A stretch of 64,000 nt of DNA from Bacillota bacterium (GTDB lineage Bacteria; Bacillota; Clostridia; Peptostreptococcales; Anaerovoracaceae): contig JAAWDM010000055.1 in NCBI GenBank assembly GCA_022793795.1, positions 40,189 to 104,188 on the forward strand, in the 5' to 3' direction. The position numbers and the translations under genes are program-made. Of the stretch, positions 21,224-41,138 are shown in pieces. Under the pieces are notes generated by a model that was not told the origin of the DNA, made no database searches, and saw only the letters and a program-made list of their open reading frames with translations. Within the stretch, counting starts at the first letter, position 1; each line of letters begins with the position of its first letter.

Positions 21224-21501
21224 GTTGACACATTCCTTGAAATCAGAAGATTTGGTCAAAAAATCCATACACATTTTACCATTTTAGATGTTTTTTCAAG
21301 GGTTGTACATGGAATCTTTGACACGACTCCCTTTGTTTTGCAAAATGAGTCAACGTTTTCAGCCAGTTTTGTTGACTCAGAGGGGCAAAATTTGAAAATG
21401 TGTCAAAACTGACCTGAAAAGCACTTTGCAACCATGGATTTTGCAAAGGGAGTAAGGCCAATTTGCTGACACAAAACCTTAAAAATGAGAAATGAGTCAA
21501 A
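21224..21501 (-). repeat. Four-unit array of inverted TTGAC words (element A)
   Basis: Read on the minus strand, four units of about 37 nt each begin with a TTTGAC/GTTGAC word and end with its inverse (GTCAA or GTCAGC) after about 23 nt. Units are separated by linkers of 57, 16 and 57 nt, giving a symmetric element of 278 bp. The first linker contains CCCTTTGCAAA at the same offset as in the element at 39837. It lies between the HNH gene and rimP. The small ORFs here are not convincing. Confidence 0.7.
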
Positions 21502-21815: not shown

Positions 21816-22784
21816 TTACTTTCCTTTTACCTCCTTGATAAGATTTTTCTCTAAGTTTGTAAACACAAAATTGTAACGTGTATATTCAAAATTTGAAAAA
21901 GAATTCTTTTCCACTTTTTCTCCAGCGTCTATATTTGAAAGCACTAAATCATTTACATATAGGCCATTTTTCTTTGTTGTAAACCGAGAATCATCAAATT
22001 GCCGTGATGGCATTTTGGGAATAGTCGTCCTGCTGATACTGTCGATCCGATAGTAAATATGAAAGTCCGCAACATATTTGTCTTTGTGAAAATATGAAGA
22101 CAAATATGTATTTAACAAAACGCATTTATCTAAGAGTTCTGAACTATCAGATTGGTACGGCATATCAAAATTACTTATAGTAATTTTCACATTTTGCGGA
22201 TATGTATCGCTGCTGGATGAAAGTCCATTATACCAGTTATTATATTTACTGTAGGAAATACTCTCCGAGTCAAATATTTTTTCAATAAAGTCAATGACCG
22301 CACCGTTTGAAACAGATTTTAAATATATAAATACCGTTCCAACAAATCTGTCTTTGTTTTGAATACCTTTTAAGTTCTTAAAGAGTCTGATTCCGGCAGC
22401 TGAATCATAGAAGTCCACATCATCGCACTCCTGCTCAGACTGCTCCAGCTTCTCTCTTGCTCGTATTTCATAATGATTTTGCACTCTGCGAATTTCAAAC
22501 GAAATACCATTTGCTGTAAAGCAAGGGAAGCGGTCTGCTTTTTCATCATTTGTGAGGATATGACAGCAGACCAGATTGTGGTCAGCCGTTACACCTCCAC
22601 GACTTTGAGGAAGAATGTGATCTACATTCCATCCAAATTCACTATTGCGATCATTATAAGCTCCTTTGGCTATCGTCCTGCCAGTGAAATCTTTCACCTT
22701 AGTTTCTCTACCAAAGTTCTTATTCCAGAGCCGCATAGCTGTTTCCCTATTCAGTTCCATAAATGTTCTTTCGATCTTTTCCAT
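21816..22784 (-). CDS. HNH endonuclease-domain protein of unknown role
   Basis: The protein (322 residues, or 314 from the second ATG at 22760) has an HNH-type nuclease segment near its N terminus: GWNVDHILPQSRGGVTADHNLVCCH, then NDEKADRFPCF. The rest (about residues 120-320) matches no family I recognise. It stands alone, without a methylase, helicase or phage genes, in a region containing fragments of other genes. Such proteins occur as solitary accessory nucleases in Clostridia and may be part of defence or mobile DNA. A fragment of another reading frame overlaps its start, so the N terminus is uncertain. Confidence 0.65.
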   Translation of the reverse strand: MEKIERTFMELNRETAMRLWNKNFGRETKVKDFTGRTIAKGAYNDRNSEFGWNVDHILPQSRGGVTADHNLVCCHILTNDEKADRFPCFTANGISFEIRRVQNHYEIRAREKLEQSEQECDDVDFYDSAAGIRLFKNLKGIQNKDRFVGTVFIYLKSVSNGAVIDFIEKIFDSESISYSKYNNWYNGLSSSSDTYPQNVKITISNFDMPYQSDSSELLDKCVLLNTYLSSYFHKDKYVADFHIYYRIDSISRTTIPKMPSRQFDDSRFTTKKNGLYVNDLVLSNIDAGEKVEKNSFSNFEYTRYNFVFTNLEKNLIKEVKGK

Positions 22785-22890
22785 AATGATTACGGAAAGA
22801 TGCCTTTGCCTCCGACAATGAAGTCAATTCAATAAAAGCATGTAACTGGCCATAGGGCGACCTATTGCTATAAACCTCAAAGGGTGATCC
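22747..22890 (-). pseudogene. Unidentified coding fragment overlapping the HNH start
   Basis: In another minus frame the sequence reads GSPFEVYSNRSPYGQLHAFI followed by ELTSLSEAKASFRNHYGKD and a stop at 22747. The composition is protein-like with no internal stop over 47 codons, but there is no start codon. It looks like the tail of a lost gene. I cannot name the family. Confidence 0.4.
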
Positions 22891-22972
22891 TCATAATAGC
22901 ATTCCAGAAGATCAGTCAGTTAGTTTTCTGTGTCTACATAGAAAATTTTCAGTTTCATTGAATCGCAATTTC

Positions 22973-38585: not shown

Positions 38586-39797
38586 ATGAAACAAATCAGC
38601 CAAGACGTATTACAAACCAAGATTGACCAAATCTATCCTCAAGTGGTGACCGCTCGTCGCCATATTCATCAGCATCCCGAATTGAGCGGCCATGAGGAAA
38701 AGACTTGCCAATATATTATAGAGCAATTATCTGCCATGGGAATCGAAGCAAACCCCATCGCGGGTACCGGCGTATTAGCCCTCATCCAAGGCCAAGGCGC
38801 TGGCTGTGATGCAGAAAAAAGAACTGTCGCTATCCGTGCAGACATCGATGCACTTCCAATTATGGAAAACACCGGCCTGCCCTTTTCCTCCCAAAACCCA
38901 GGTGTCATGCATGCCTGCGGTCACGACGTTCACGCCAGCATCCTGCTGGGAACTGCCGCACTGCTCCATTCCATGCGAGATGAATTCATTGGCGCTGTGA
39001 AGCTGTTCTTCCAGCCCAACGAAGAGGCGGAGGGCGGTGCAGCTCCCATGATTGCCGAAGGATGTATGGAAAATCCAAAAGTGGATGCTGTACTGGGCCT
39101 CCATGTAACGGAAGCTCTTCCCGTGGGCTCTATCGAACTGTGCCGCGGCACCATGAACGCCGCCACCTGTGAGCTAAAAATCAAAGTCATGGGTAAAAGC
39201 TGCCATGGCGCTCATCCAGAAGGCGGTGTGGACGCTATCATCATTGCAGCCAATGTCATCACAGCCCTCCAGACCATCATCACACGCAACCTAGCCCCTA
39301 CTGATCCGCTTATCATTACCCTTGGCACCATCCATGGTGGCGCTAAGGAAAACGTAGTAGCTGGAGAGGTTATGCTGACAGGTACCTTGCGTAGTCTGAC
39401 CCTGGCCCATAGAGATTTTGCCCAGAAACGGATACAGGAAATCTGTGAAGGCGTAGCAGCTGCCTATGGCGGCAGCTGTCAGGTGGAATTTATAAATGGC
39501 TATCCACCCCTGGACAACAATGATGACCTGGTGGATTTGCTGGCAGACCTGGGCAAACAATTTCTTGGCAGCGAAAACGTCCGCTACTTGCCTGCTCCAA
39601 GCCTAGGCGCGGACGACTTCGCCTACTTCTGCCAGGCGGCGCCTTCCGTCTACTTCAATATCGGCACCGCCGCCCCAACAGCTACTAACCCAGCCCCAAT
39701 CCACAATGAGGCTTTCTGCCCAGATGAAGAAGCCATGAAGGTAGGCATCCTTATGGAAACCGCCGCCGCGCTGAAACTGCTGCAAGAGGGACTGTAG
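38586..39797 (+). CDS. M20D amidohydrolase (N-acyl-L-amino acid / hippurate hydrolase type)
   Basis: This 403-residue metal-dependent amidohydrolase shows IHQHPELSGHEEKT, ADIDALPI, MHACGHDVHASILLG with Cys-Gly-His-Asp-x-His ligands, FFQPNEEAEGGA with the catalytic Glu, and GKSCHGAHPEGGVD of the lid domain. It probably removes acyl groups from N-acyl amino acids or related amides in the cytoplasm. The ATG at 38586 with AAAAGGAG is chosen over the longer ORF, which begins inside the kinase remnant. It is convergent with the aldo/keto reductase; the inverted-word element B lies between. Confidence 0.85.
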   Translation: MKQISQDVLQTKIDQIYPQVVTARRHIHQHPELSGHEEKTCQYIIEQLSAMGIEANPIAGTGVLALIQGQGAGCDAEKRTVAIRADIDALPIMENTGLPFSSQNPGVMHACGHDVHASILLGTAALLHSMRDEFIGAVKLFFQPNEEAEGGAAPMIAEGCMENPKVDAVLGLHVTEALPVGSIELCRGTMNAATCELKIKVMGKSCHGAHPEGGVDAIIIAANVITALQTIITRNLAPTDPLIITLGTIHGGAKENVVAGEVMLTGTLRSLTLAHRDFAQKRIQEICEGVAAAYGGSCQVEFINGYPPLDNNDDLVDLLADLGKQFLGSENVRYLPAPSLGADDFAYFCQAAPSVYFNIGTAAPTATNPAPIHNEAFCPDEEAMKVGILMETAAALKLLQEGL

Positions 39798-39836: not shown

Positions 39837-40020
39837 GTTGGCTAGTCTGATGTAAAATCATGATTTAGCCAACTTTTTTGTTCCAATCCCTTTGCAAACT
39901 CAGTGGTTTCAAGGGATTTAATCGGTGCATGTTGGCTTTTGGGCTGAAACTTTGAAAAAGAGCCAACGTTTTGAGCTAATTCTGTTGGCTCCTTTCAGAA
40001 AAAATAAAAAAATGTATCAA
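39837..40020 (+). repeat. Array of inverted GTTGGCT words (element B)
   Basis: Five perfect copies of GTTGGCT or its inverse AGCCAAC alternate in orientation. They form two complete units and half of a third, each following the pattern word, 23 nt, inverse word. Linkers are 57 and 16 nt, the same as in element A, and CCCTTTGCAAA sits at the same linker offset. The inverse word of the third unit is degenerate and reaches the aldo/keto-reductase stop. The first hairpin is followed by TTTTTTG and could also terminate the M20 gene. Confidence 0.75.
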
Positions 40021-40022
40021 CT

Positions 40023-41138
40023 TTATAATGCCTCACTGACCTCTTTTAACCGTTCTCTGATGGCGATGTGCTGCGGACAGGCTTCCTCACACTTTCCACA
40101 GCCGATACATTGGGACGCACCCTTAAATCCATGGCCGCCTACTAGCCATGTTTCCTGACCTTTTGCCATCTCCTTATCCCCATATAACGTCAGATAATTC
40201 ATTGCGGTAAAGGAACCGGAAATACCGATACCTGCTGGGCACACCTTTGCACAGTAATTACAAGTAGTACACGGTATCAACGGAATCCGTTTCATCTCTG
40301 CGGAAGCCTCTGCCAAAGTCTTTTTCTGTGCCTCATTGAATCCATGAAAATCCTTCATAGCAGAAATGCTATCCTTCATCTGCTCCACATTACTTACGCC
40401 ATTGAGGACAGTAATAATGCCTTCTAAATCAGCTGCAAACCGTATGGCCCAGGAAGCAACAGAAGATTCCGGTTCTGCCTCCTTAAAAATCTTTGCCACG
40501 GACTCCGGTGGATTGGCCAGCATCCCTCCTTTGACCGGTTCCATGATGATAACCGGTTTGCCGTGTTTTCTAGCCACTTCATAACATGCCTTTGACTGAA
40601 CCGCTGGATTATCCCAGTCTCCATAGTTAATCTGTAGCTGAACGAATTCGGCCTCTGGATGAGCAGTTAAAATCTCATCCAATTCCTTTGCTGTAGAATG
40701 AAAAGAAAAGCCCACATGCTTAATCAGCCCTTCCGCCTTCTTCTCAAATGCCCAATTCCACATATCAAAGTCGTCAAAATAGTGGGTTCTTCCCTCACCC
40801 AGATTGTGAAGTAAATAAAAGTCAAAATAGCCTGCGCCAGTCTGTTTCAAAGAGGTCTCGAACTGACTATAGGCCTCCTCCTTGGTCTTACAGTTAATCC
40901 AGGCCGCATTTTTCGTGGCCAGCTGAAAATCCTCTCTCGGATACCGCTCCACCAACGCCTGCCTGATTGCATCCTCTGAACCTGCATAGGCCCAAGCCGT
41001 ATCAAAATAGGTAAAGCCTGCCGCCATGAACAGATCCACCATTTCCTTTGTCTGCTCCACATCGATTGCCCCATCTTTTTGCGGCAGACGCATCAAACCA
41101 AAACCTAATTTTCCTATGTTCTCTCCCAAATATGCCAT
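40023..41138 (-). CDS. Aldo/keto reductase with C-terminal 4Fe-4S ferredoxin domain
   Basis: Residues 1 to about 265 form an AKR barrel (GFGLMRLPQ, FDTAWAYAGSED, YLLHNLGEG, MEPVKGGMLANPP). About 290-365 carries two cluster motifs, CTTCNYCAKVCPAGI and CIGCGKCEEACPQHI. This fused architecture is common in anaerobic Clostridia; physiological substrates are mostly unknown, with ferredoxin-type electron transfer likely. A GGAGG site precedes the ATG. It follows the TetR regulator after 16 nt, so the regulator probably controls it. Confidence 0.88.
   Translation of the reverse strand: MAYLGENIGKLGFGLMRLPQKDGAIDVEQTKEMVDLFMAAGFTYFDTAWAYAGSEDAIRQALVERYPREDFQLATKNAAWINCKTKEEAYSQFETSLKQTGAGYFDFYLLHNLGEGRTHYFDDFDMWNWAFEKKAEGLIKHVGFSFHSTAKELDEILTAHPEAEFVQLQINYGDWDNPAVQSKACYEVARKHGKPVIIMEPVKGGMLANPPESVAKIFKEAEPESSVASWAIRFAADLEGIITVLNGVSNVEQMKDSISAMKDFHGFNEAQKKTLAEASAEMKRIPLIPCTTCNYCAKVCPAGIGISGSFTAMNYLTLYGDKEMAKGQETWLVGGHGFKGASQCIGCGKCEEACPQHIAIRERLKEVSEAL

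Follow-up and report, generated by a model that had tools for sequence, protein, structure and literature searches.

The window, a 64,000-nucleotide stretch covering positions 40189-104188 of contig C20 in a 2.48-Mb assembly (genome G000), carries two related palindrome arrays that we call elements A and B (Table 1). Element B lies between a peptidase M20 gene on one side (stop at 39797) and, on the opposite side, an aldo/keto reductase-ferredoxin gene encoded on the other strand (40023-41138). Its three units start 94 and 53 bp apart and the fourth unit of a full array is missing, while the four units of element A start 94, 53 and 94 bp apart. The initial annotation had proposed that the two sites share a common geometry, and measurement bears this out: both have unit starts separated by 94 and 53 bp, and in both the core CCCTTTGCAAA begins 16 bp after unit 1. 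Chance does not explain the resemblance, as a blastn search with element B against its own genome returned a second-best match of E=4e-50. No described RNA family in Rfam matched at either element. Elsewhere in the window, an HNH-domain ORF with a weak match to the Cas9d HNH domain lies directly downstream of an Rfam RNA, a gene order that resembles HEARO/omega-RNA loci.

Table 1. Coordinates of elements A and B, their units and associated features (window positions unless a contig is named)
Feature	Position	Strand	Description
Element B	39837-40021	+	three units; 39838-40020 measured TTG-to-CAA
Element B unit 1	39838..39872	+	TTGGCT-N23-AGCCAA, 35 bp; G000:C20:80026-80060
Shared core in element B	39888..39898	+	CCCTTTGCAAA; in 59-bp linker, 16 bp after unit 1
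Element B unit 2	39932..39966	+	TTGGCT-N23-AGCCAA, 35 bp; C20:80120-80154
Element B unit 3	39985..40020	+	TTGGCT...TATCAA, 36 bp; right arm diverged, sister copies read TGTACAA
Element A	21500 down to 21225	-	four units; C20:61411-61688
Element A unit 1	21466..21500	-	TTGACTCA...TGTGTCAG, 35 bp
Shared core in element A	21440..21450	-	CCCTTTGCAAA; offset 16 bp, as in B
Element A unit 2	21372..21406	-	TTGACACA...TGAGTCAA, 35 bp; C20:61560-61594
Element A unit 3	21318..21353	-	TTGACTCA...GTGTCAA, 36 bp; contains inverted core CAAAGGGAG
Element A unit 4	21225..21259	-	TTGACCAA...TGTGTCAA, 35 bp
HNH-domain ORF	21816-22961	-	322-aa ORF; PF13395; positions span the ORF and the RNA of the next row
RF03112 'Staphylococcus-1' RNA	22829-22961		126.6 bits
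Intact nuclease gene	G000:C44:155620-156405		
IS200-type TnpA gene	G000:C6:189-533 (L173)		159 aa; only Y1 transposase found in assembly

The signal is larger than the two sites first seen, as element B is one of about 60 interspersed arrays of a single family in this genome, located in all kinds of intergenic places and comprising 98 units, a count that permits at most one mismatch per arm and may include about ten units of chance background. Each unit is exactly 35 bp long, opens with TTG and a word, closes with the reverse word and CAA, and has about 19 bp of variable DNA between the two words; units occur singly or in arrays of up to four, with the full array spaced 94, 53 and 94 bp between starts. 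Searches of the genome by blastn (E<=10) placed element B at 40 sites and the A consensus at 64, the weakest matches in each case being at chance level. Pattern searches further define the fixed length: TTGACWCA-N15..23-TGWGTCAA matches at 40 sites, with N19 exactly at 38 of these and no match for the reversed-pattern control, and TTGGCT-N12..34-AGCCAA occurs 20 times, 12 with exactly N23 and likewise 35 bp long. Across the unit loci examined, 98 distinct word-pair units have length 35, compared with 3-24 at each other length from 25 to 45. Full-length A copies are 279 bp and dispersed. Some A arrays (L164, L092, L170, L067, L068, L074) sit within a larger repeat of ~400 bp. Its ends resemble GGGGCTGTCGCAT, it includes a terminator-like hairpin (GGCTGTCGC...GCGACAGCC), and it may be a separate MITE with the array as cargo.

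Words within a unit are matched in class and not identical. None of the 98 units joins a TTGAC arm with a TTGGC or TTGTAC arm; within family A, TTGACTCA stands on one arm and TTGACACA on the other in 41 of 52 units, and family B units combine TTGGCT either with itself (n=21) or with TTGTACA (n=18), the outer arms usually reading TTGTACA or TTGGCACA. The proposal that words are uniform within elements and differ between elements and genomes is thus upheld at the level of word class, whereas the stricter statement that every word in an element is identical fails: GTTGGCT accounts for five of the six arms of element B, the last arm (40015-40021) reads TATCAAC, and most family A units join unequal arms. 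Among the 14 full-length A copies aligned, mean pairwise divergence reaches 38% outside the arms and core motifs, compared with 6% within the arms and 1.5% within the core motifs.

Two explanations had been offered for the concerted words, base pairing between arms and a binding protein whose specificity drifts. Were the elements to act as RNA or single-stranded DNA hairpins, the words would match through arm pairing, and every unit is indeed an inverted repeat, the RNA of element B folds better than 200 of 200 shuffles (z -4.1) and RNAalifold proposes a large fold-back. The covariation term of that fold is -0.3, however, and arm mismatches across 205 units (57 G.T, 87 A.C and 397 other) contain no excess of G.T over A.C. 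Pairing also drops to background inward of the arms, where the 19-bp interior is constant in length and not in sequence or pairing. We consider a hairpin very unlikely. Because arms are often mismatched, G.T pairs show no excess and covariation is absent, double-stranded DNA sites are favored, and the fixed spacing together with the mismatched arms strongly favors reading the elements as sites of a DNA-binding protein. The concerted-word signal is real, and a binding protein of drifting specificity explains it best.

We compared the arrays with those of other genomes. Element B found no blastn match in 40 relatives, including four congeners, and the word-tolerant pattern TTGRC-N25-GYCAA, with 97 matches in this genome against 11 in the control, gave zero or one in the congeners; 335 kb of sequence from two congeners, scanned for palindromes of any word, likewise showed no peak at 35-39 bp. 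Across 351 genomes of the same bacterial family, TGTTGRC-N25-GYCAACA matched 22 genomes with reversed controls near zero, the richest being G330 (29 copies), G000 (19), G143 (16), G320 (14) and G317 (10). In this search the 35-bp unit appears in several genera under other words, with dispersed units reading TTGGCA in G317-G320, TTGACAAA in G324, TTGGCGA in G021 and G272 and TTGGCT in G143, and spacings of 93/94, 52/53 and 82/83 bp between units are found again in other genera. G021 (L197, L199) and G272 (L276), from another genus, carry TTGGCGA...TCGCCAA unit pairs 132-134 bp apart. Beyond this family, the exact core CTYACTCCCTTTGCAAAA gave 14 matches to unrelated taxa among GTDB contigs, about the chance expectation, and the 35-bp A pattern gave 31 matches in IMG/VR, by estimate also about chance. 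One viral contig with two hits (L149) was unrelated on reading: its TTGACACA...TGTGTCAA-type 35-bp palindromes, at 112-146 and 2842-2876 and 2.7 kb apart, flank a helicase-like gene and are probably repressor sites.

The candidate protein was sought by clustering every ORF near units across genomes with no prior choice of gene, and the top cluster was a single family, located at a unit in eight genomes. Its ~260-aa members share invariant VRS..E, PD and EHCG motifs; E160, PD189-190 and E205 are invariant and the lysine position is occupied by cysteine, such that ExK reads EHC. Neither Pfam nor NCBIfam names the family and no PDB sequence matches it, while the PDC-S68 proteins of PADLOC end in a region that matches its C-terminal half (E 3e-34). 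The family is a putative PD-(D/E)XK-type nuclease. Homologs are present in 231 of the 351 genomes, frequently several per genome, and dN/dS values of 0.08-0.16 indicate that the gene is maintained by purifying selection. No copies were found in viral contigs, and searches of phages and plasmids returned partial matches only, those in plasmids mostly inside ATPase or helicase genes. Since 231 genomes carry a homolog and only 22 carry dispersed units of the type searched, dispersal is not a constant companion of the nuclease. Nuclease genes that adjoin units in G330 (L242) and G318 (L275) seem to be broken or to have internal deletions, yet the units remain, and G330 is the genome with the most units.

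In this genome, the leader of the intact nuclease gene carries an A-word array with unit starts 93, 53 and 94 bp apart, the last unit falling within codons 11-22, and a 59-bp stretch of the leader is 80% identical to the A consensus. The dispersed A elements therefore share the layout of the nuclease leader. A word-blind examination of 30 homolog loci located 34 perfect 7-bp inverted repeats with an outer length of 37 bp, spread over the 5' regions of 18 loci; other outer lengths gave 2-18 each (at 39, one base wider, the same unit is counted again), the gene body gave three and far upstream sequence zero, and the remaining 12 of 30 loci have no 37-bp unit. In many homologs a unit is positioned at +23 or +29 relative to the coding start, with another 83 to 167 bp upstream. 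Palindromic units were also observed inside the first 10-22 codons of nuclease genes (L163:451-485, L282, L284 and other starts). With a unit inside the first nuclease codons, two residue pairs (LT/VN or LA/AN) co-vary with the DNA word, and in seven orthologs the residues coded under both arms change jointly, LT with VN and LA with AN.

The word at the 5' end of the nuclease gene equals the dispersed-unit word in all eight genomes tested, G000 (A words), G142, G143, G146, G317, G320, G324 and G254, where some of the units counted in G142, G143, G146 and G254 are those at the nuclease itself. The search alignment included some genomes picked for having units, making top-hit enrichment there partly circular. 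Out of sample, the nucleases of G320 and G324, which were absent from that alignment and were found by protein homology alone, carry TTGGCAGA and TTGACAAA, the words of the dispersed units found earlier in these genomes by DNA pattern. Paralogs within one genome differ in word, as in G320 where the C89 gene carries TTGGCAGA and the C27 gene TTGTAAAA/TTGTACAG, and neighbors in the protein tree have the same or nearly the same words as judged by eye. No nuclease with B words was found in this genome, where two of the six homologs counted were located; a third was absent from 40 further 20-kb stretches (800 kb) and from all unit loci examined. A homolog in the congener G001 carries TTGTATGA, close to the B outer word TTGTACAT, and provides a lead only.

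These observations bear on whether the nuclease itself reads the word. The arrays could instead be bound by a host protein, regulatory or nucleoid, with the nuclease gene merely one target, given that all copies keep their arms, consistent with a host function, arrays occupy every kind of intergenic position and palindromes upstream of genes are typical of operators. We regard this as unlikely: the word changes with nuclease clade and differs between paralogs of the same genome, so that a separate regulator would have to change in step, and units are missing from four congeners, which would be odd for a core host protein. An origin as MITEs derived from a standard DDE transposon, such as an IS21-like element with its repeated TTGAC sites and TG...CA ends, would fit the TGTTGAC...GTCAACA ends, the repeated subterminal words and the dispersed 279-bp copies of family A. 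It is nonetheless highly improbable, as the only two IstB-profile matches are in ORFs of 547 and 338 aa with no unit alongside, no target-site duplication was evident when the flanks of 14 copies were compared by eye, arrays vary from one to four units, and the gene linked to the word is a nuclease and no transposase. The idea that the units are IS21 ends was likewise rejected, with no IS21-type element seen with these units. Dispersed extragenic palindromes in several word classes are a hallmark of REPINs (PMC3116915), yet classical REP/REPIN elements moved by a RAYT (HuH) transposase are the least credible source of these arrays and extremely unlikely: a PF01797 search identified the IS200-type TnpA as the sole Y1 transposase gene with RAYT absent, and the units have no GTAG or CGTC tag, a 19-bp interior and arrays of four.

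We therefore return to the nuclease, which is probably the protein that reads and spreads the arrays, and judge it likely from comparative sequence evidence that element B, as a dispersed and non-autonomous array, supplies recognition sites to a sequence-specific PD-(D/E)XK-family protein. A nuclease dimer may bind both arms of one unit, whose centers are about 27 bp apart, and units spaced 94 and 53 bp apart could sit on one face of the helix and allow dimers to assemble; these spacings are near whole helical turns (about 9 and 5), a phasing that could be accidental. Binding at the units 5' of its own gene would repress or tune nuclease expression, and cutting at arrays followed by repair would place copies at new intergenic positions. 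Neither target-site duplications nor empty sites or excision products were observed. Elements A and B would represent two subfamilies with different words, and the nuclease version matching B would either be gone from this assembly or have been missed in it. More broadly, it is moderately likely that these loci represent an undescribed class of system, a multi-paralog PD-(D/E)XK family, found in 231 or more of the 351 genomes, in which each paralog would read its own palindromic word and keep site copies in its own leader and first codons, with some lineages having seeded the chromosome with dozens of arrays of leader geometry. We met no description of this pairing of nuclease and palindrome in the open-access literature. 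If this is correct, an enzyme class with no relation to RAYT can also drive palindrome dispersal in bacteria, and the REPIN strategy would have been invented independently. The variation of the word among homologous proteins would constitute a series of protein-DNA specificity pairs (TTGAC, TTGGC, CTGAC, CGGAC, GTGAC, TTGTA, ATGTA and others) useful for decoding DNA reading and designing sequence-specific binders, and would provide a function-bearing lead for a nuclease family unnamed in both Pfam and NCBIfam.

Several known systems share parts of this arrangement. Rpn/YhgA-like PD-(D/E)XK nucleases are multi-copy in bacteria and linked to RecA-independent recombination (PMC5350276), whereas the nuclease described here has no Pfam match to the Rpn family and Rpn has no known repeat family. 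The PDC-S68 candidate defense proteins of PADLOC have a C-terminal domain that matches the nuclease domain here (E about 1e-34), in models of about 1200 aa compared with stand-alone proteins of 260 aa that have a different N-terminus and palindromic units. CGTC-tagged REPs, which have no known dedicated transposase (PMC3733652), are similarly dispersed palindromes, some within genes, whose spreading enzyme is unclear, and differ in their CGTC tag, 4-5 bp loops, occurrence in other phyla and absence of a nuclease link. A close parallel is REPIN-RAYT, in which REP doublets are paired with a REP-associated tyrosine transposase (PMC3116915, PMC8266576). Both feature short dispersed intergenic palindromes that fall into several word classes in each genome, a cognate enzyme gene flanked by its own repeats and co-evolution of repeat and enzyme. 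In contrast to the HuH Y1 transposase of REPIN-RAYT, the enzyme here is of PD-(D/E)XK type; the GTAG/CGTC tetranucleotide is absent from the aligned copies, the units measure 35 bp around an interior fixed at 19 bp and form arrays of as many as four, spaced 94, 53 and 94 bp, and one unit lies inside the enzyme coding sequence. The system fails the defining features of the REPIN-RAYT family but resembles it in its apparent manner of working.
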